Shown here: positions 1,672-12,437 of the stretch, one piece after another
How positions within the stretch are numbered: the first letter of the stretch is position 1
Layout: every line of letters starts with the position of its first letter
Assembly: GCA_903932755.1 (NCBI GenBank)
Contig: CAIZHL010000156.1
Location: forward strand, 1-23,075
DNA length: 23,075 nucleotides
DNA from: an uncultured beta proteobacterium
GTDB lineage: Bacteria; Pseudomonadota; Gammaproteobacteria; Burkholderiales; Rhodocyclaceae
Direction: 5' to 3'
Notes under the pieces: model-generated
The model's input: only the letters and a program-made list of their open reading frames with translations
Told to the model about the DNA's origin: nothing
The model's database searches: none
Program-made: the position numbers and the translations under genes

Positions 1672-4600
1672 ATGGCCATCATCAACAACATCAACGCCCT
1701 CGTCACTGGCACCAATACCGATGACCTGATCCAGTCCTTTGTCGATCTTTCCGTCTGGGCCAGCGGTAGCGGCGGCAACCAGACCCTGTACGGCGGCCTT
1801 GGCAACGACACCTACATCATCGGCAACACCGGGGCCGGGGCGGCGGGCGACATCACCATCGAACTGTACGGCGAGGGCACCGATACGGTCGTCCTCTACA
1901 CCTTGGTCAATGGCTCTTACCAGCTTTCGGAACAGATCGAAAATCTGGTATCTCGCCGCATGACGCCATCCGGCACAACGGGGTCGGCGGCAACCAACCT
2001 CACCGGCAACACGCTCAACAACGTCATCACCGTCGACGACGGCAACCTGCTCACCACAGGTCTCTCAGAGACGCTCGACGGCGGGCTCGGCAACGACACC
2101 ATGAGCGCCGGCCACGGCAACGACAACTACGTCGTCGATTCCGCGTCCGACATCATCATCGAGTCGAACACTGCGATCATCAATGGCGTCGTGGTCAACG
2201 GCTTTGTCAATGGCGTGGTGCAGTCCGGATTCGTCGACACCGTCACGGCCTCGGTCAGCTACGTCCTTGGGATCAACGTCGAGAACCTGACCCTCGCCGC
2301 CCCTCCCGCCAACACCAACGGCAACATTAACGCCACCGGCAACCTGCTGGGCAACACGCTCACCGGCAATGCCTTCAACAACGTCCTCGACGGCCTTGAC
2401 GGCAACGACATGCTCCTCGGCAATGCCGGCAACGACCGCCTGCTCGGCGGCGGCGGCAACGACCTGCTCGACGGCGGCTCGGGCAACGACAGCATGGACG
2501 GCGGCCTCGGCGACGACACCTACCGCATGGACAGCGCCCTCGATGTCATCGTCGCCGACGCCGGCGGCATCGACAGCGTGCAGCTCACCAACAACGCGAC
2601 CTTCAATGCCTACGTTTTGCCCACTTTCATCGAGAACGTCTTCGCCCTCGGTGCCTTTAGCGTCACCCTCACCGGCAACGCGCTGGACAACCAGTTGTTC
2701 GGTAACACCCAAAACGACACCTTGATCGGTGGTGACGGCAACGACATCCTCGACGGCGGCTTAGGTACCGACACCCTCAACGGCGGCAAGGGCAACGACG
2801 TCTACGTGCTCGACTCGACCAGCGACGTCATCGTCGCGGAAAAGGCGGCGGAAGGCATCGACACGGTCTTCGTCACGGTCGGTGCAGGCCTGACCTACAC
2901 CCTCGCCGGCGAACTGGAACGCCTCAACCTGACCGGCACGGCCAACGCCAACGGCACCGGCAATGCGCTGGACAACGGCATCCTCGGCAACAGCGGCAAC
3001 AACACGCTGCTCGGCCTCGCAGGTAACGACAACATCAGCGGCATGGCCGGCAACGACATGCTCTCGGGTGGCGCCGGCAACGACAACGTGGAGGGCGGCG
3101 CCGGCAACGACATGCTTTCCGGTGGCGCGGGCAACGACCTGCTGTTCGGCGGCAGCGACAACGACATCCTGGACGGCGGCGACGGCGCAGATACGCTCAC
3201 CGGCGGCGCGGGCTTCGACAGCATGTCCGGCGGCCTGGGCAACGACATCTACTTCGTCACCGACCTCACCGGCACCAACCCGCAGACGCGCGACATCGTG
3301 TACGAACTGGGCGGCACCGGCAGCGGCATCGACACGGTCAATTCCACGGTCTCGATCAACGAGCTGTTCGCCAACGTCGAGAACCTCAACCTGACCGGTT
3401 TCGCCAACATCGACGGCATCGGCAACGCGCTGTCCAACATCATCAACGGCAATGCCGGCGACAACACGCTCGACGCCGGCCGCGACACCCTGAACGACAC
3501 CCTGGCCGGCGGCCTCGGCAACGACACCTACATCATCTACGGCACCAACGACGTCGTCACCGAAGTGCCGAACGTGCCGGTTCCGGCGCCCGGCAGCGGC
3601 CTGCTGCCCGGCTTCACCGACACCGTCATCTACCGCGGCACCGCGAACTACACGCTGGCGGCCAACGTCGAGAACCTGGCCCTCGACAGCGGCCTCGGCA
3701 ACGTCAACGGCGCCGGCAACGCGCTGGACAACTTCATCTTCGGCTCTTCCGGCAACAACACCCTCGACGGCGGCCTCGGCAACGACATCATCATGGGCGG
3801 CGACGGCGCCGACCTACTGTTCGGCGGTGCCGGCAACGACATGCTCGACGGCAACCTCGGCGCCGACTTCATGGCCGGCGGCGCCGGCGACGACATGTAC
3901 ACCGTCGAGAGCGTGGACGACTTCGTAAACGAGACGATCTTCGGCGGCGCCGGCAACGACACCGTGGTGTCCTTCCTGCGCGACATCAGCATCGTCACCA
4001 GCCTCAACATGGTGGGCGCCATCGAGAACGTCACCCTCGGCGGCGGCGCCCTCAACGCCACCGGCAACGATCTGGCCAACATCCTGCGCGGCAATGCGCT
4101 GGCCAACGAACTGGTCGGCGGCAAGGGCAACGACACCTACTTCGCCGACCTGACCGACCAGATCCGGGAAACCAGCGACGCGGCCGCCAACGGCACCGAC
4201 ACGGTCAACCTCGACGTCGGCAGCAATGCCCTGAACATCAACGTGCTTGTCGGCACGGCACCGATGGCGCCATTGCCGATCCCGCGCGGCCAGTTGTGGA
4301 ACGTCGAGAACGTGACCCTGCTCGGCACCGGCAATTCCAATATCATGTTCCAGCACTACACTTCGACCAACCCACTGGTCAATACCCCGGTCAACACCCA
4401 GGCCAACACCCTGGTCGGCAACGACGGCAACAACATCCTCGACGGCGCCGGCGGCGCCGACAGCATGACCGGCGGCAAGGGCAGCGATACCTACTACGTG
4501 GACAACGTCGGCGACAAGACCCTCGAACTGCTCGACCAGGGCAACGACACGGTGTTCAGCACCGTGACCTGGACCCTGGCGGCGGACACCGAGAACCTGA

Positions 4601-7600
4601 CTCTGATCGGCACCGGCACCCTCAACGGCACCGGCAACGCGCTGGACAATGTGCTGCGCGGCAACGACCTGGCCAACGTCCTGACCGGCCTCGCCGGCAA
4701 CGACACGCTGATCGGCGGCGGCGGCAACGACACCATGAACGGCGGTGACGGCGACGACACCTACCATGTGAACAGCGCCGGCGACATCGTGACGGACAGC
4801 TCGGGCGTCGACAACGTGGTCAGCTACATCACCGGCGCCACCGCCTACACCCTGGCGACCGGGGTGGAGAACCTGAGCTTCTACAACGGCTATGCCCTGA
4901 CGCCGGCGGTGATGAACGGCAACGGCAACACGCTCGACAACCGCATCACCGCCAACCTCTCGGCCAACGCCATCGACGGCGGCGCCGGCAACGACACGCT
5001 CGACTTCAACCTGCTCGGCTCGCTGACGACGGCCGACACCCTGATCGGCGGCGCCGGCAACGACAGTCTGTCCAACGACACGCTGCTGGCCGACATCACC
5101 GGCAGCCTCACGCTCGACAAGATGTTCTTCATCGAAACCGCGGTGCTGCGCGCCGCGGGCGTCGGCAACGGCAGCATCGACTTCGGCGACACCGGTTGGG
5201 ACAGCCTGCGCGAGGTGGATTTCACCGGTTCTTCGGGCAAAACCTTGACGGTGATCGGTGCGCACAACACCGGCTTCGTGAATAACCTCGGATCCGGTAC
5301 GCCGCTGGTCTTCGGCCTCACGGATTACGACGGCACCGGCGTGACCATCAACGGCTTGAACGTTTCCGGCGATGCCGATGTGCTCAATCTGGCGATCCGC
5401 GATTCCGGCCTCAGCACCGCGCTGACCACCGCCGACTGGGAAACCATCCGCATCAACAACCAGCCTTCGGCCGACGGCTCCTTTGCTGCCAACACGCTGA
5501 ACATGGCCAACCTGACGGCCACGACCTCGCTAACCCCCGGCGTAGTGACGGTGCTGGAAGTCACCGGCATGGGCGGCAGCCAGCTAAACCTGACCGGGCT
5601 CAAGACGGCCGATCTTGCTGGCGGCAGCGCCTTCAGCCGCGAGCTGCAGGTGACGGCGGTCAATTACGACGGCCGCCTGCAACTGACGTCCGACGGCGCC
5701 GGCATCGCCCAAGTCAATGTCCAGGATTCGTCCTTCTGGCTCGATACCGTCACCATCAACGCGCTGGAAATCTTCGCCAAGGGACCGGCGGGCGGCGCGC
5801 TGACATCGACCGGCCAGGTGCACCTGAATGAGGCTGGAACCAACATCGCCACGCTTAACGTCGGCGGCGCCGCGGGCAGCACCCTCACCGTGGACGGCAT
5901 CCGCGCCGCCACCATCAACGCTTCGACCTTCAACGGCGCCAACCTGTTCGTCACCGCGGAAGGCACCACCGCCGGCACTTGGACCGGGCCGTCCAGCGGG
6001 GCGGTGAACTTCAGCTTTACCGGTGGTGGCGGTGGCGACACCTTCAACTTCAACACTGCCGGGATGGTCGATGGCTTCGACATCGTCGACGGCGGTGCCA
6101 ACACAGACATCGTCAACGTCAATATCACCGGCATGGGCGTGTCCGGCACGGCGATGAGCGGCGGCCTGCACTTCGAGAATACCGAAACCATCAACTTCAC
6201 CAACACCGGTACCGCGGTGGTCGACGCCTCGATGATGGACGGCAATGTGCTCATGACCGGCCTCCCCGGCACCGCCACCACCATCCACGGTCTGGGCGGC
6301 AGCTTCAACGGCGGCGGCCTCCCCGGCACCGTGACCATCTACGCCGATCCCGCCGCCCTGGCTGCGACCTACACCAGTTTCGGCAGCGGCCAGCAGATCA
6401 TCTACGGCAGCCAGGCGCAGGGCGTGGTCAACACCTTCACTTTCGGCAGCCAGCTCGACAGCTCCGACTTCGTCCAGGCCTGGGACTTCGATACCGTCGC
6501 GCCGGACGTGCTCACCGCCACCCTGTTCGGCGTCACCATCGCGCCGCAGATCATGGGCGTCGAGAACCTGACCATCACCTCCAGTACCGCGCCCAACACC
6601 ATTCACGCCGGCAACATCGTCGGCGCGGTCAATTGGACGCTGACCGGCACGGCGGCGCTCACCCTCGATGGCTTCGGCGCAACCAGCCCGATGTACGGTG
6701 CAACCGGCACGACCATCAATGCGGGCGGGCTGTCCGGCCTGTTCAACCTCGACGCCTCGGACACGGCCGAGACGATCACCATCGGCAGCGGCGGCAGTTT
6801 CGTCGATGCCTGGGGTGGTGACGACACCATCATTGGTGGCAGCGGCATCGACACCATACGCGGCGACGACGGCAACGACACCATCACCGGCGGCGGCAGT
6901 GCAGACGAACTCTACGGTGGCGACGGCAGCGACACCTTCCTGCTCGGTCAGGCCAACGCCGGCGCCGATTCGCAGAACGACACGGTGAACGGCGACCAGG
7001 GCAACAACGACGCGGCGGATTACGCCGGCACGACGGCGGTCACGGTGCTGATGTCGGGTGCGGGTAACGGTTCGGCGCAGCAGACCGCCGGCATAACCCT
7101 GGGTGTCGATGTGCTTATCAGCATCGAGCGCGTGCTCGGCTCCAGCGCGGTGGATACCTTCACCGGCGACCACAGCTACTTCATGACCAACACCAGTCAG
7201 GACGCCAGCAGAACCTATGTCGGCCGCGCCGGCAACGACATCATCAACGGCGGCGGCAGCGAGGCCGGTTACAACGATCTGGTGGACTACTCGGTGTCGA
7301 CCACCTTCGGTGTGATCGTGAACCTCGGCACGCCCAGCGTGACGATTACCGGGCAGGCGCTCGTCGCCGGCGGCAGCGCGACCGACATCGCGGGCGGCTC
7401 GGGCATCGGTACCGACCAGCTGACCAACGTCGACGGCGCTTACGGCACCGCCGTCGCCGACATTTTTGTCGGCGGCAGCAACAGCGTCGCCTACAACGGC
7501 AGCCTGTTCGAGTACTGGATGGGCAATGGCGGCAACGACATCATCGCCGGCAGTGTCGCCGCATTGAGTTCGACCCTGAGTCCCGGCAGTACCGGGCAGG

Positions 7601-8850
7601 TGAACATTCTCGATTACGACATGGCCAGCTACCAGTCCTCCACTTCCGGCGTGCGCGTCAACCTCAACCTCGGCACCGCGCAGGACGGACTCGGCGGCAG
7701 CGACCTGCTGTTCGACATCAACCAGGTGCGCGGTTCCAACTACGACGACTACATGTTTGGCGGCAACGTGCAGAACGACTACTTCGAGTCCTTCGAAGGG
7801 CGCGCGGGCGACGACTACATCAACGGCGGCTCGGGCTACGATTCGGCGCGCTACCAGAACGCCGCCTCCCGGATCATCGCCGATCTGTCCACCGGCATCG
7901 TCGAGGACGGCGACGGCGGCACCGACGTGCTGCTCAACATCGAGCACATCCGTGGCTCGGACTTCGCCGACATCATGACCGGCTCGACCGGCAACGATGC
8001 CTTCGAAGGCCGCATGGGCAACGATACGATCAACGGCGGCGCCGGCATCGACCGCGTCGAGTACAGCAACGACATCGACAACAACGGCCCCGGTGTTGGC
8101 GTGACGGTCAACCTTGCCGGCACGGCGACCGACGGCTGGGGCGGCACCGACACGCTGATCTCGATCGAGTCGGTGCGCGGTTCGATCCACAACGACACAC
8201 TGATCGGTACCGGCGCCAACGAGTTCTTCGACGGCCGCCAAGGCGCTGACAGCATCGACGGCGGCCTCGGCATCGATACCGTCATATATGCGGGCGAGAT
8301 CGGCTCGGGGGTTACGGTGAGCTTGATTACCAACATCGCCGCCCACGCCGACGGCACCGACACCCTGAGCGGCATCGAGAACATCATCGGTTCCTTCTAC
8401 GGCGACACCCTGAGCGGCGACGGGGGTGCCAACCGCTTGCAGGGCGCGGGAAGCAACCTCTGGACCTGGGCCAACACCGGTGCCGACGACGGCGACGTGC
8501 TGGAGGGTGACTTCGGCAACGATGTCTTCGTCTTCAATTCGGCGCTCGATGCGACCCACAACCTCGACACCATCGTCGACTTTAAATCTGTCCTTTTGAA
8601 CGTCGTGGGCAATGTCGACAAGATCGAACTCGACGACGCGATCTTCACCGGGCTGGCGCTGGGTGCGCTCAATGCGGCGAATTTCGTGGATGTGGGAATA
8701 GACTCGATTACTGCCACCGACCGCATCATCTTCGATTCCGGCGCCTTGTACTACGACGCAGACGGCAGCGGCCTCGACTTCACGCAGGTGCAGTTCGCCC
8801 TGCTCTCCGGCGTGACGGCGGTGTCCGCGGCGGACTTCATCATCGCCTGA
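1672..8850 (+). CDS. giant RTX calcium-binding protein, predicted type I secretion substrate
   Basis: The 2392-residue protein has no signal peptide and I found no cysteine in it. Residues 40-1120 hold GGxGxD nonapeptides (first at 41-46) in about ten larger modules. Each module has a NVENLTL-type strand, a NGTGNALDN turn, then GNDTL/GGAGNDTY repeats that bind calcium as parallel beta-rolls. Residues about 1123-1713 lack RTX repeats and read as a Thr/Asn/Gly-rich beta-strand domain. RTX repeats resume (about 1713-1790), followed by about five modules of another kind (VNLxxGTAxDGxGGTD, IExVRGS, GRxGND, INGGxG). The last ~110 residues (DTIVDF, DRIIFDSGALYYDADGSG, ending AADFIIA) match the serralysin/RTX C-terminal secretion region. 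No catalytic motif was seen. S-layer, adhesin or bulk matrix protein are possible roles. No ABC or membrane-fusion exporter gene lies nearby. Start ATG 1672 has AAGGGAG seven bases upstream. Confidence 0.93.
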   Translation: MAIINNINALVTGTNTDDLIQSFVDLSVWASGSGGNQTLYGGLGNDTYIIGNTGAGAAGDITIELYGEGTDTVVLYTLVNGSYQLSEQIENLVSRRMTPSGTTGSAATNLTGNTLNNVITVDDGNLLTTGLSETLDGGLGNDTMSAGHGNDNYVVDSASDIIIESNTAIINGVVVNGFVNGVVQSGFVDTVTASVSYVLGINVENLTLAAPPANTNGNINATGNLLGNTLTGNAFNNVLDGLDGNDMLLGNAGNDRLLGGGGNDLLDGGSGNDSMDGGLGDDTYRMDSALDVIVADAGGIDSVQLTNNATFNAYVLPTFIENVFALGAFSVTLTGNALDNQLFGNTQNDTLIGGDGNDILDGGLGTDTLNGGKGNDVYVLDSTSDVIVAEKAAEGIDTVFVTVGAGLTYTLAGELERLNLTGTANANGTGNALDNGILGNSGNNTLLGLAGNDNISGMAGNDMLSGGAGNDNVEGGAGNDMLSGGAGNDLLFGGSDNDILDGGDGADTLTGGAGFDSMSGGLGNDIYFVTDLTGTNPQTRDIVYELGGTGSGIDTVNSTVSINELFANVENLNLTGFANIDGIGNALSNIINGNAGDNTLDAGRDTLNDTLAGGLGNDTYIIYGTNDVVTEVPNVPVPAPGSGLLPGFTDTVIYRGTANYTLAANVENLALDSGLGNVNGAGNALDNFIFGSSGNNTLDGGLGNDIIMGGDGADLLFGGAGNDMLDGNLGADFMAGGAGDDMYTVESVDDFVNETIFGGAGNDTVVSFLRDISIVTSLNMVGAIENVTLGGGALNATGNDLANILRGNALANELVGGKGNDTYFADLTDQIRETSDAAANGTDTVNLDVGSNALNINVLVGTAPMAPLPIPRGQLWNVENVTLLGTGNSNIMFQHYTSTNPLVNTPVNTQANTLVGNDGNNILDGAGGADSMTGGKGSDTYYVDNVGDKTLELLDQGNDTVFSTVTWTLAADTENLTLIGTGTLNGTGNALDNVLRGNDLANVLTGLAGNDTLIGGGGNDTMNGGDGDDTYHVNSAGDIVTDSSGVDNVVSYITGATAYTLATGVENLSFYNGYALTPAVMNGNGNTLDNRITANLSANAIDGGAGNDTLDFNLLGSLTTADTLIGGAGNDSLSNDTLLADITGSLTLDKMFFIETAVLRAAGVGNGSIDFGDTGWDSLREVDFTGSSGKTLTVIGAHNTGFVNNLGSGTPLVFGLTDYDGTGVTINGLNVSGDADVLNLAIRDSGLSTALTTADWETIRINNQPSADGSFAANTLNMANLTATTSLTPGVVTVLEVTGMGGSQLNLTGLKTADLAGGSAFSRELQVTAVNYDGRLQLTSDGAGIAQVNVQDSSFWLDTVTINALEIFAKGPAGGALTSTGQVHLNEAGTNIATLNVGGAAGSTLTVDGIRAATINASTFNGANLFVTAEGTTAGTWTGPSSGAVNFSFTGGGGGDTFNFNTAGMVDGFDIVDGGANTDIVNVNITGMGVSGTAMSGGLHFENTETINFTNTGTAVVDASMMDGNVLMTGLPGTATTIHGLGGSFNGGGLPGTVTIYADPAALAATYTSFGSGQQIIYGSQAQGVVNTFTFGSQLDSSDFVQAWDFDTVAPDVLTATLFGVTIAPQIMGVENLTITSSTAPNTIHAGNIVGAVNWTLTGTAALTLDGFGATSPMYGATGTTINAGGLSGLFNLDASDTAETITIGSGGSFVDAWGGDDTIIGGSGIDTIRGDDGNDTITGGGSADELYGGDGSDTFLLGQANAGADSQNDTVNGDQGNNDAADYAGTTAVTVLMSGAGNGSAQQTAGITLGVDVLISIERVLGSSAVDTFTGDHSYFMTNTSQDASRTYVGRAGNDIINGGGSEAGYNDLVDYSVSTTFGVIVNLGTPSVTITGQALVAGGSATDIAGGSGIGTDQLTNVDGAYGTAVADIFVGGSNSVAYNGSLFEYWMGNGGNDIIAGSVAALSSTLSPGSTGQVNILDYDMASYQSSTSGVRVNLNLGTAQDGLGGSDLLFDINQVRGSNYDDYMFGGNVQNDYFESFEGRAGDDYINGGSGYDSARYQNAASRIIADLSTGIVEDGDGGTDVLLNIEHIRGSDFADIMTGSTGNDAFEGRMGNDTINGGAGIDRVEYSNDIDNNGPGVGVTVNLAGTATDGWGGTDTLISIESVRGSIHNDTLIGTGANEFFDGRQGADSIDGGLGIDTVIYAGEIGSGVTVSLITNIAAHADGTDTLSGIENIIGSFYGDTLSGDGGANRLQGAGSNLWTWANTGADDGDVLEGDFGNDVFVFNSALDATHNLDTIVDFKSVLLNVVGNVDKIELDDAIFTGLALGALNAANFVDVGIDSITATDRIIFDSGALYYDADGSGLDFTQVQFALLSGVTAVSAADFIIA

Positions 8851-8984: not shown

Positions 8985-9015
8985 GGGGTGCGGGTTTTCC
9001 CGCACCCCTTTTTTT
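8985..9015 (+). terminator. intrinsic terminator of the RTX gene
   Basis: A perfect 10-bp stem, GGGGTGCGGG (8985-8994) and CCCGCACCCC (8999-9008), has a TTTT loop and is followed by seven T. It lies about 135 bp beyond the RTX stop codon and is oriented for + strand transcription. It would isolate the giant gene from the convergent gene at 9111. Confidence 0.95.
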
Positions 9016-9110: not shown

Positions 9111-10832
9111 TCAGTCGCGCGGGTAAAGGCTGCAGCGTTCGAATTCGATGCCGCGATCGAGGACGCGGAACAGCTTCACGATCTGCGGCTGGTGATCCAC
9201 CATGACTTCGACGCGGCGGTCGATGCGGAAGCTGCCGGCCGGCACGATCAGGCTGGGCGGCATCCGCAGGGCGGGAATTTCCGGCAGCAGCAGGCCCTGG
9301 CGCCAGAGGCCGGGCGGCTCGCCCGGCTCGATGGCGCGCATCGCCACGGCGCGCGCTTCGCCTGGAAAAAGCTGGATCCCGGCCTGCAGCGTGTCGTTCT
9401 CGCCGTGCAGGGCCCAGCGCACGCAGGCCAGCATGTAACGCCGGGCGCTGCCGATCCTGACCGCGATCAGCATGCCGGTGCCGATGCGCACGCCGGCGCG
9501 CAGCGGCCGCGCGATGCACAGCCCGGCGGCCGATTCGTTCATCACCCGCCAGTCGTCCGTCACCAGCCAGTCTTCGACATGCGTGTCGTCCTCGGCGGCC
9601 GCGGCGGCGACGCTGTGGCGGCGGTCGCCGAAGGTTTCGAATTCCTCGCGCTCGCGGCGCAGCGTGGCGTCGTCGCGCGAGGGTGCGCGGAAGGGCTGGC
9701 GGTCGCCGAGGTGGAAGTGCACCGCCTCGAAGCCGGCCACCACGTTGCAGCCGCCGCTGGCGCTTTGGCGCTCTTCGCGCCGCTTGGCGCCGCCCGCGCA
9801 CCAGCGCTGCAGCACCCGCTGCAGCAACGGGCCGGCCGCCGGCTGGGTGACGTCGTCGCCCAGCTGCAGGTCGGCCGGGGAGCTGCCCCGTTCGAGCAGG
9901 GCGATGCGGGTGTTGAGGCTGGTGCGCAGCTCGGTGGTGTCCAGCCAGCGGCCGTTGCCGCCCGGCTGCGGCGCATGGCTGGGCGGCCGCTGCGAGTCGA
10001 GGTCCACCCAGAGCGGCACGGCGCGATTGCGAATGTCTTCCGGCGGCGCCTTGAGCAGGACCAGCTTGGCGCCCCAGCGCCGCGCCCAGCGGGCAACCCA
10101 GACCATGTGCCGCGGCGGGAGTTCGTAGGCGCTGGCGGTGGAGAGCAGGTTGCATTCGCCATAGGCGGCCAGGGCGCTGGTCGGCGTCGCGCCGTGGCGC
10201 ACCGGGTCGCTGACGGCGAGTGCTTCGACGCCGAGGCGTTCCGCGGCGGAGAATACCCGGTGCAGTTGCAGCCAGTAGGCCGCATCGGGCAGTTCCTCGC
10301 CGCGGCACAGGTCGACTTGCCAGTCGGCGAATACCGAGAGGGTGCGCTGCGCCAGCAGGGCCGGCAGCGCCGGCAGGCGGCGGCTGCGCCCGGTCTGGTC
10401 GTCGCACACGGCGAAGAAGCAGCGCAGGTAGCCTTGCGCCAGCGTCTGCCAGAGGTCCAGCGTGCGCTCGAGGGCAGCCTGCTCCGGCGGCGCCAGGGGC
10501 AGCGGCCGCCCGGCGAAAAGGCTTGCCGCATCGGCCTGCACGGCGATCACCGGGCGGCGCAAGGCTTCGAGGATCGCGGCGCGCTCGCCGGGCAGCAGGT
10601 CATGGCGATGCAGCAGTTTTAGCTGGCGCAGCAGTATCGGTTGCGCCAGCGAGACATTCGCCAGCGGCACCCGCTGCAGCCAGGCCGCGCATTCGGCGGC
10701 GTCGATGAAGGAGGGTGCCTGCTCGGCCCCGGCGGCGGGCGCCTGCCGGGTCGCGGCGGTATCGATGCTGCGGGGGAGGTTTGCGGCCGCCGGCGTGTCG
10801 GACGTGCGGCTCGGGCTGATGGATGTGGCCAT
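9111..10832 (-). CDS. hypothetical protein with degenerate PilZ-like C-terminal region, under a c-di-GMP riboswitch
   Basis: The 573-residue protein is probably cytosolic, with no signal peptide or membrane segment. The N-terminal ~60 residues are Ala/Pro/Ser-rich and low in complexity; the middle (about 60-400) is helical and I recognise no family. In the C-terminal part, VMNESAAGLCIARP at 430-443 supplies the (D/N)xSxxG motif of PilZ domains (N432, S434, G437). It is followed by a beta-rich stretch (GMLIAVRIG, YMLACVRWAL, LQAGIQLFPGEA) like the PilZ barrel. The preceding RxxxR motif that holds c-di-GMP in canonical PilZ is not clearly present. The start ATG at 10832 has AGGAG six bases upstream; the frame stays open to 10976 but those codons fall inside the riboswitch. 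Function is unknown; a c-di-GMP effector role is inferred from the PilZ-like region plus the riboswitch in its leader. Confidence 0.7.
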   Translation of the reverse strand: MATSISPSRTSDTPAAANLPRSIDTAATRQAPAAGAEQAPSFIDAAECAAWLQRVPLANVSLAQPILLRQLKLLHRHDLLPGERAAILEALRRPVIAVQADAASLFAGRPLPLAPPEQAALERTLDLWQTLAQGYLRCFFAVCDDQTGRSRRLPALPALLAQRTLSVFADWQVDLCRGEELPDAAYWLQLHRVFSAAERLGVEALAVSDPVRHGATPTSALAAYGECNLLSTASAYELPPRHMVWVARWARRWGAKLVLLKAPPEDIRNRAVPLWVDLDSQRPPSHAPQPGGNGRWLDTTELRTSLNTRIALLERGSSPADLQLGDDVTQPAAGPLLQRVLQRWCAGGAKRREERQSASGGCNVVAGFEAVHFHLGDRQPFRAPSRDDATLRREREEFETFGDRRHSVAAAAAEDDTHVEDWLVTDDWRVMNESAAGLCIARPLRAGVRIGTGMLIAVRIGSARRYMLACVRWALHGENDTLQAGIQLFPGEARAVAMRAIEPGEPPGLWRQGLLLPEIPALRMPPSLIVPAGSFRIDRRVEVMVDHQPQIVKLFRVLDRGIEFERCSLYPRD

Positions 10833-10842
10833 ATCGATCTCC

Positions 10843-10940
10843 TGGTGATCCCGCTGCCTTGGGACGCCAGGTTTGGCGTCCGGTAGGCCGGTGATTTTGC
10901 GTCTCCGCCTTTCAGCGGATTTGCCTTGTTTCAGAACCAA
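10843..10940 (-). promoter_or_regulatory. c-di-GMP-I (GEMM-I) riboswitch
   Basis: Read on the minus strand, the leader matches the GEMM-I core of the Vibrio Vc2 type in order. First comes ACAAGGCAAA (conserved GGCAAA with the ligand-contacting G). Then P2 is TCCGCT-GAAA-GGCGGA, six pairs closed by a GAAA tetraloop, followed by the joining strand GACGCAAAA. P3 begins CACCGGCCTA, has a perfect apical stem GGACGCC/GGCGTCC, and returns through AAGG to GCAGCGGGATCACC, close to GTAGCGGGGTTACC of Vc2. A short P1 pairs TTGGT (10936-10940) with ACCAG (10842-10846). The P1 3' strand overlaps the AGGAG Shine-Dalgarno (10839-10843), which suggests control of translation initiation with ligand folding the site away. 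No terminator hairpin lies in the leader. Class assignment is from visible motifs, not a covariance search. Confidence 0.88.
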
Positions 10941-10947
10941 TGATTGC

Positions 10948-10976
10948 TTTATATGGCAAGCATGCTGCCCTCGCAA
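10948..10976 (-). promoter_or_regulatory. sigma-70 promoter for the riboswitch transcript
   Basis: On the minus strand, -35 TTGCGA (10971-10976) and -10 TATAAA (10948-10953) are exactly 17 bases apart. The predicted start, A at about 10941, lies directly before the riboswitch P1 strand at 10940, so promoter and aptamer positions support each other. Confidence 0.75.
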
Positions 10977-11031
10977 GGCACTATTTCACGCTCGCCAAAG
11001 TCATCGTGTCGGCGACAGGCACTATTTCACG
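10976..11031. repeat. 15-bp direct repeat upstream of the riboswitch promoter
   Basis: AGGCACTATTTCACG occurs at 10976-10990 and again at 11017-11031, 41 bp apart (close to four helical turns). The nearer copy abuts the -35 hexamer. This is a layout typical of activator sites, but the cognate regulator is unknown and it could also be a fragment of a small tandem repeat. Confidence 0.8.
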
Positions 11032-11041
11032 GTCATGCCAT

Positions 11042-11066
11042 TCGCCGTGTCGCCAGCGCCGACTTT
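11042..11066. repeat. dispersed 25-bp repeat, copy 2
   Basis: Same pattern as 9075-9099 and 17229-17253: TCGCCGT, two variable bases, CGCCAGCGCC, then GACTTT. This copy is intergenic, between the divergent riboswitch-controlled gene and the MFS gene. The remaining bases up to 11165 show a possible TATAAG -10 near 11108 and nothing else clear. Confidence 0.7.
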
Positions 11067-11165
11067 TCGCGCCTGCGCCTGGCCTGCCGCAATCGTCGTT
11101 CTGCGGGTATAAGGTGAACGCATGGCCGTCCCGCCATCGTCACGAAAGTTCGCCCCGGCCCCGCC

Positions 11166-12437
11166 ATGAATCATCCGTCGCCCGCCCATCCCTCGCCCGA
11201 GCCCCTCGATCCGGCGCGCGAACGCGTGTTGCTGGTGACGCTGGCCGGCATCCAGTTCGCCCACATCCTCGACTTCATGATCATGATGCCGCTGGGCCCG
11301 GTCCTGATGCAGGAGTTCGGCGTCGGCACCCACGAGTTCGGCCTGCTGGTTTCCTCCTACACGTTTTCCGCGGCCTTCACCGGCCTCCTGGCGGCGATGT
11401 TCGTCGACCGCTTCGAGCGCAAGCGCCTCTTGCTGACCATGTTCGCCCTGTTCGCCGTGGCGACCCTGGCCTGCGGCCTGGCGCCGGGCTACTGGACGCT
11501 GCTGGTGGCGCGCGGCACGGCGGGCGCCTTCGGCGGCGTGCTCGGCTCGATGGTGCAAACCATGGTCGGCGACCTGATTCCCTTCGAGCGGCGCGGCCGC
11601 GCCAGCGGCACCGTGATGTCGGCCTTTTCGCTGTCGACCGTGGCCGGCGTGCCGCTGTCGCTGTTCCTCGCCAACCACTTCGGCTGGCGCGCGCCCTTCT
11701 TCCTGATTGCGCTGCTGTCCTGCGGCCTGCTGCTGCTGGGCTGGAAGAAGCTGCCGGTGCTGCGCGGGCACCTGCCGACGGCCACCGTCTCCGAGGCCGA
11801 GCGCGCCCATCCGCTGGCGGCCATGGCGGCCGTGCTGCGCGACCCCAACCACCTGCGCGCGCTGCTGTTCATGGCCCTGATCATGGTCTCCGGCTTCAGC
11901 GTGATTCCCTACATCACGATTTACCTGACGGCGAATGTCGGCGTGCGCCTGGAAGACATTCCGCTGATCTACCTGTGCGGCGGCTGCGCCACCTTCTTCA
12001 CCTCGCGCCTGGTGGGCCGCCTGGCCGATGCTTACGGCAAGGTCCGCACCTACCGCGCCGTGGCGCTGTGTTCGGTGCTGCCGCTGCTGGTGCAGACCCA
12101 CCTCTGGCCGGTGGCGCTGTGGGTCGCGGTGTTCTGGTCGACCGTGTTCTTTATCCTGGTGCCGGGGCGCATGGTGCCGGCGATGGCGATCGTCACCTCG
12201 GCGGTGCAGCCGCGCCTGCGCGGCACCTTCCTTTCGATGAACGGCGCCGTGCAGCAACTGGCGTCGGGCACGGCGTCCTGGCTGGGCGGCGCGATGATCG
12301 CCGCCGATGCCTCGGGACGCATCGTCGGCTACGACAGGGTCGGCTGGGTTGCCGTCGGCGCCACCCTGATCGCCATCGCCTTCGTCGGCCGGATCCACAT
12401 GCACACGGGTTTGCCGCCCGGCGCCGGCAAGGGCTAG
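11166..12437 (+). CDS. MFS transporter, DHA1-like exporter
   Basis: The 423-residue inner-membrane protein has twelve hydrophobic segments with a central hydrophilic loop (about residues 200-225), the 6+6 layout of the major facilitator superfamily. The loop after segment 2 carries VDRFERKRLLL, a weak form of MFS motif A (GxxxDRxGRRxxL); the matching loop in the second half reads VGRLADAYGKVRTYR. The N-terminal ~20 residues are Pro-rich and cytosolic. By family resemblance (AraJ-like permeases) it is a proton-coupled exporter of sugars or drugs; the substrate cannot be read from sequence. ATG 11166 is the first in-frame start after the promoter region and has no strong Shine-Dalgarno. It is divergent from the riboswitch-controlled gene and ends 2 bp from the stop of a convergent gene. 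Confidence 0.9.
   Translation: MNHPSPAHPSPEPLDPARERVLLVTLAGIQFAHILDFMIMMPLGPVLMQEFGVGTHEFGLLVSSYTFSAAFTGLLAAMFVDRFERKRLLLTMFALFAVATLACGLAPGYWTLLVARGTAGAFGGVLGSMVQTMVGDLIPFERRGRASGTVMSAFSLSTVAGVPLSLFLANHFGWRAPFFLIALLSCGLLLLGWKKLPVLRGHLPTATVSEAERAHPLAAMAAVLRDPNHLRALLFMALIMVSGFSVIPYITIYLTANVGVRLEDIPLIYLCGGCATFFTSRLVGRLADAYGKVRTYRAVALCSVLPLLVQTHLWPVALWVAVFWSTVFFILVPGRMVPAMAIVTSAVQPRLRGTFLSMNGAVQQLASGTASWLGGAMIAADASGRIVGYDRVGWVAVGATLIAIAFVGRIHMHTGLPPGAGKG

Follow-up and report, generated by a model that had tools for sequence, protein, structure and literature searches.

The window analysed here, a stretch of 23,075 nucleotides from a bacterium related to Sulfuritalea, carries on its minus strand a c-di-GMP-I riboswitch and, immediately behind it, a gene (10832-9111) encoding a protein of 573 amino acids, P0001, in which searches and structure models delineate a helical N-terminal domain, a domain that very likely adopts the PilZ fold and is interrupted by an insert, and a C-terminal beta domain. 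An earlier note on this DNA had proposed a c-di-GMP-I riboswitch controlling a PilZ-like protein, and this reading is supported by the RNA match, the fold, the PilZ motifs and the conservation of the arrangement within a single clade. One gene here combines an RNA that senses a second messenger with a protein that probably senses it too. As a riboswitch the RNA is ordinary for its class; what makes the locus interesting is the control specific to one of two duplicates, together with a hidden PilZ domain. Elsewhere on the minus strand, the translated frame at 22252-19802 resembles, by eye, a hybrid histidine kinase of PAS type that carries two receiver domains.

The aptamer and its presumed promoter

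The assignment of the RNA to the c-di-GMP-I family is certain. The comparison with RF01051 by Infernal that the earlier note had suggested was run, and cmscan matched positions 10935-10841 of the minus strand to the full length of the model (1-87) with 68.5 bits and an E-value of 9.4e-12, where the gathering score is 35 bits. The ordered GEMM-I core described in that note is present, each element at its place: GGCAAA, a P2 hairpin of 6 bp with a GAAA tetraloop (10919-10904; sequence, cmscan alignment and pair counting), GACGCAAA, CCGGCCTA, a 7-bp apical stem of P3 (10881-10875 with 10868-10862; sequence and fold calculation) and GCAGCGGGATCACC. The structure expected of RF01051, namely P2 with its tetraloop, GACGCAAA, P3 with CCGGCCUA and a closing P1, is complete. 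This is the sole RF01051 match in its genome (a 2.8 Mb draft, 70% complete), and a chance match is ruled out by the E-value and by nine conserved loci. As in Vc2 of Vibrio cholerae, a translational GEMM-I riboswitch, all consensus elements are present, the covariance match is full length and P1 is likely the switching helix.

Nine leaders with a PilZ-fold gene behind them were compared side by side. The first G of GGC, which probably corresponds to the ligand-selecting G20 of Vc2, is G in all nine. When pairs were counted over the nine leaders, 87% of the cells were paired, compared with 36-53% once the partners had been slid, and the covariation score was matched by 5 of 500 shuffles. Pairs changed on both sides numbered four over the whole structure, showing no excess (168 of 500 shuffles reach this figure); none of the four falls in P1, whose 3′ strand is invariant.

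Upstream of the aptamer, a –10-like hexamer TATAAA (10953-10948), invariant in the nine leaders, and a –35-like hexamer TTGCGA (10976-10971) 17 bases before it, with TTGnnn at 17 or 18 bases in 9/9 leaders, form a putative promoter. Because the –10 element ends so near the aptamer, transcription is expected to start near 10941, at the 5′ strand of P1. A scan for the standard promoter consensus reported no promoter at the leader, since it requires the second hexamer to end in T. In the nine leaders the ATG lies 107-112 bases past the presumed start of the RNA, which would therefore have a leader little larger than the aptamer. A transcription terminator as expression platform was considered and rejected: just 8 bases separate aptamer and ATG, leaving no room for it, and the sole terminator-like call in 10700-11200 corresponds to the P2 stem in plus-strand orientation.

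At and just upstream of the promoter, GTGAAATAGTGCCT occurs twice on the minus strand (10989-10976 and 11030-11017), 41 bases apart and with no further copy in the available genome sequence, while a single related copy, GTGAAATAKTACCT, is located at about –48 in three other genomes (G012, G029 and G020); these repeats are a possible regulator site. In the four leaders of the other subclade (L017, L020, L021 and L066), a GTGA-N6-TCAC palindrome upstream of the riboswitch is centred at about –60.5 or –61.5, a placement that would suit a CRP-type activator site.

Helix P1 and the Shine-Dalgarno sequence

The overlap of P1 with the Shine-Dalgarno sequence, also claimed earlier, was confirmed. The 5′ strand AUUGGU-UCUG (10941-10932) can form four inner and six outer pairs with the 3′ strand CAGG-AG-AUCGAU (10844-10833): UCUG (10935-10932) with CAGG (10844-10841) and AUUGGU (10941-10936) with AUCGAU (10838-10833) enclose the Shine-Dalgarno AGGAG (10843-10839), which ends six bases before the ATG (10832). 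CAGGAGATCG is invariant in 9/9 leaders, and the invariant AUCG after AGGAG ends two bases before the ATG. The inner pairs are possible in all nine leaders; the four adjacent outer pairs are possible in the eight leaders scored by script and, judged by eye with a one-base shift, in G026. Of the two outermost pairs, one cannot form in 4 and the other in 5 of those eight leaders. The Shine-Dalgarno thus lies within P1 in every one of the nine.

Energy calculations, which take no account of the ligand, give for the leader alone a difference of at most 1.5 kcal/mol between folds with P1 forced and folds with AGGA forced open in 9/9 leaders (–41.3 versus –40.0 kcal/mol in the window). The P1-type fold is the lowest in six of them, and P1 is absent from the lowest-energy fold in G009, G019 and G026. 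With 30 extra coding bases, AGGA is largely free in the window (probabilities 0.01 to 0.18) and, on our reading, P1 persists in the lowest fold of G020 only, while the ligand-free calculations for G006, G009 and G026 show parts of AGGAG mainly paired. The calculated folds of the window suit a switch that would be open when free and closed once c-di-GMP locks P1, a picture that is not uniform across the leaders. The 5′ strand of P1 (10939-10932) also has a possible alternative partner in CGGGAUCA, the CGGGAUC(A) stretch at 10853-10846, with 7-8 contiguous pairs possible in 9/9 leaders. This is a weak hint, because the leaders are related and shuffles of the window letters reach it, with at least 8 such pairs in 3.4% of trials and at least 7 in 10.8%.

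A PilZ-fold protein with an insert

The N-terminal domain of P0001 (residues 45-345, 10700-9798) is mostly helical in the structure models, gave no significant fold match in a structure search and probably binds a partner. It is followed by the PilZ-fold domain (residues 350-492, 9785-9357), in which the NxSxxG motif noticed earlier at 432-437 is real (N432-E-S-A-A-G437, 9539-9522; sequence and alignment) and is accompanied by a matching RxxxR motif, not mentioned before, at residues 351-355 (9782-9768). Between them the model places a mostly helical insert (residues 367-423, 9734-9564), poorly modelled at 406-420. The structure prediction of this region suggested in the earlier note agrees with a PilZ barrel, the model superposing at 1.6-2.3 Å on the seven best chains, all of them PilZ. 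In the model the PilZ site is intact, with R351, R355, N432, S434 and G437 in a barrel interrupted by the insert, and P0001 is predicted to sense c-di-GMP.

Sequence models reach this domain poorly. Pfam, PF07238 included, reported no family for P0001 at E 1, and PF07238 matches two of 84 family members, weakly (best E 0.017), so that we file P0001 as a PilZ-fold protein and not as a member of PF07238. Comparison of the P0001 profile with those of PilZ domains gave a modest match (E 0.0012, probability 19%), and precomputed database labels assign both PF27125 and PF27104 to all 120 relatives listed of 379. P0001 shares the barrel fold, RxxxR and [D/N]xSxxG with the PilZ domains of YcgR, VCA0042, PA0012, BcsA and Alg44; unlike these, it carries about 57 inserted residues behind strand 1, a helical N-terminal domain and additional C-terminal beta strands, and is not reached by PF07238. 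In the YcgR-GAZ proteins of Leptospirales, a GAF-like insert after RxxxR is reported to leave c-di-GMP binding intact; these proteins differ from P0001 in the GAF-like nature of the insert and in their outer domains, and the single mention of riboswitches in the accessible part of that paper is general (PMC11800159). P0001 gives a functional lead for a betaproteobacterial family mostly labelled ‘hypothetical’, and suggests that sequence models miss part of the PilZ receptors that contain inserts.

The motifs are widely kept among homologues, in alignments from which four rows are omitted (L002, the window's own copy, and the fragments L030, L069 and L070). Over the 71 aligned rows R351 is kept 66 times and R355 67 times, the spacing from R355 to position 432 has a median of 71 (range 36-82), and both motifs occur together in 58 rows: 8/9 with the riboswitch, 26/27 of the same genus without it and 24/35 of the more distant ones. 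The sole exception among the riboswitch-bearing rows is G020, where Q351 replaces one Arg of RxxxR. Position 432 is N in all nine of these rows and D in 26 of the 27 riboswitch-free rows of the same genus, the one N among the latter belonging to G017, the sister of the riboswitch clade. Both D and N are allowed at this position of the PilZ motif.

Gene duplication and the direction of control

At E 0.001 the protein is matched in 50 of the 61 genomes searched, in some of them just by a more distant family member, and among 31 genomes of the window's genus the riboswitch lies directly before a homologue in nine. On a tree built from 45 of the 71 aligned rows, leaving out the distant ones, the nine riboswitch-bearing genes form one clade (support 100/98), and the riboswitch label requires one change, against a mean of 8.4 for shuffles. 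That the whole protein family keeps the riboswitch was rejected: it was found at eight of 60 homologue loci scanned, plus the window. All nine genomes also carry another close homologue, and no riboswitch precedes it in eight of them, where the upstream side was read; the second copy of G026 starts off the contig, and that of G006 appears as fragments, one with its upstream side. For the homologue loci L093-L101, a whole-genome search with stricter filters that may lose weak matches gave no adjacent RF01051 match. A homologous copy without the RNA persists alongside in the cell and offers a natural control for judging what the riboswitch contributes.

The two kinds of copy have different surroundings. 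In G000, G012, G020, G029 and G030 the riboswitch-free copy lies behind the end of a frame that resembles, by eye, a HIT-family gene, as does the only close copy in G017; a gene for a PhoR-type histidine kinase is the neighbour on the other side in G002 and G030. The riboswitch copies of the window and of G012 are flanked by MFS and CoA-ligase genes and, at the opposite end, by a periplasmic-binding-protein gene (97-900 in the window, identified by eye), and that of G006 adjoins the same kind of binding-protein gene. As the riboswitch copies lie elsewhere than the riboswitch-free ones, it would most simply be a duplicate that moved and gained a promoter and the riboswitch once, in the ancestor of the nine sampled genomes. 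In the window, the plus-strand gene at 1672-8850, convergent to the riboswitch gene, encodes a protein of 2392 amino acids with 23 stretches of RTX-type calcium-binding nonapeptide repeats and is followed by a strong terminator-like site (8985-9008); in G012 about 1.3 kb separates the riboswitch gene from the binding-protein gene, too little to accommodate it.

The explanation that we consider probable for the locus as a whole is OFF control, by a c-di-GMP-I riboswitch, of a duplicated gene for a PilZ-type c-di-GMP receptor. The riboswitch would be nearly the entire 5′ leader of this duplicate, which would have gained its own promoter together with it, the other copy having no riboswitch. At low c-di-GMP P1 would be loose and the Shine-Dalgarno open, and the protein would be made; with c-di-GMP bound, P1 (UCUG/CAGG and the outer helix with AUCG) would be locked over the Shine-Dalgarno and translation would fall. 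Ligand binding, the direction of control and function are what we infer in this scheme. Since the riboswitch stands before the gene of a predicted c-di-GMP sensor, one signal would probably set both the amount of the sensor and its activity.

The direction of control cannot be read from the RNA family, because Vc2, described as a translational OFF switch dependent on P1 (PMC9262584), is also termed a gene-on switch in a review (PMC12564702). An ON switch, in which binding of c-di-GMP would raise translation of the PilZ protein in a coherent loop, the receptor being present only with its ligand, draws on the alternative helix that the 5′ strand of P1 can form with CGGRRU(C/U) in 9/9 leaders, on the three lowest-energy leader folds without P1 and on the report that cyclic-dinucleotide riboswitches of this aptamer type act both ways (PMC9262584). 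It nevertheless appears unlikely, as in 9/9 leaders the Shine-Dalgarno is inside the very helix that the ligand should stabilise, and the free-state fold of the window with coding sequence, though not that of every leader, leaves AGGA largely unpaired.

It is also rather improbable that the riboswitch controls a gene whose degenerate PilZ domain no longer binds c-di-GMP and serves as a structural or partner-binding module. An insert at a like site is tolerated in YcgR of Leptospira (PMC11800159), and R351, R355, [D/N]432, S434 and G437 are kept together in 8/9 riboswitch copies and 26/27 riboswitch-free copies of the same genus; set against this are the interruption of the barrel, the failure of PF07238 to recognise P0001, the Q351 of G020 and the fact that not every PilZ domain binds c-di-GMP. 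Very remote, finally, is the sensing of 3′,3′-cGAMP rather than c-di-GMP by the RNA, given a G in 9/9 leaders at the position that we presume to be G20, and a genome rich in GGDEF domains (19). Some GEMM-I RNAs do sense cGAMP (PMC7266159), a G20A variant is reported to bind 3′,3′-cGAMP (PMC6274999), and G20 is described as a selectivity factor and not a hard filter (PMC9262584).

With one copy placed, after gene duplication, under an RNA sensor of the receptor's own ligand, a two-threshold loop may be put forward tentatively, although we regard it as doubtful: a tight RNA sensor would stop synthesis while the weaker PilZ site is still mostly empty, so that the duplicate would act, in pulses, only in cells leaving the low-c-di-GMP state, the riboswitch-free copy covering the steady state. 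The affinities given are about 1 nM for Vc2 and about 840 nM for an E. coli PilZ domain (PMC12564702).

c-di-GMP-I riboswitches are described as preceding genes for motility, for chemotaxis and for adherence, but seldom those of c-di-GMP turnover (PMC6366702). In the accessible parts of the literature searched, which comprised work other than the original 2007/2008 GEMM papers, none was found named before a PilZ gene, and a prior mention is possible. Our survey of 101 related genomes gave 91 RF01051 rows, two of them under the gathering score and with filters that may lose weak matches; nine belong to the P0001 family. Among the other 82, a PilZ profile of our own matches the chosen downstream frame in three, all passing the Pfam PilZ cut-off. 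The aptamer is followed after 108 bases by a REC-PilZ protein in L053 (G094) and after 8 bases by a PilZ protein of 157 amino acids in L169 (G070); in L183 (G094), where the riboswitch match is weaker, a type IV pilus-like PilZ protein comes after 193 bases. These frames were chosen by a scoring rule, not by annotation, and single assignments may err; the stretches L152 and L185 end at contig ends. The resulting 12 of 91 rows suggest that the link between this RNA and PilZ proteins may have arisen more than once. In three genomes of different families (L032, L052 and L055), c-di-GMP-I riboswitches precede DUF1631 proteins, and several more downstream frames resemble, by eye, the N-terminus of DUF1631. 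A c-di-GMP-I-like element, under the gathering score in L194 (G029), also lies in L176 (G022), L189 (G020) and L194 before a conserved small protein starting YRKT(E/D)KGR.
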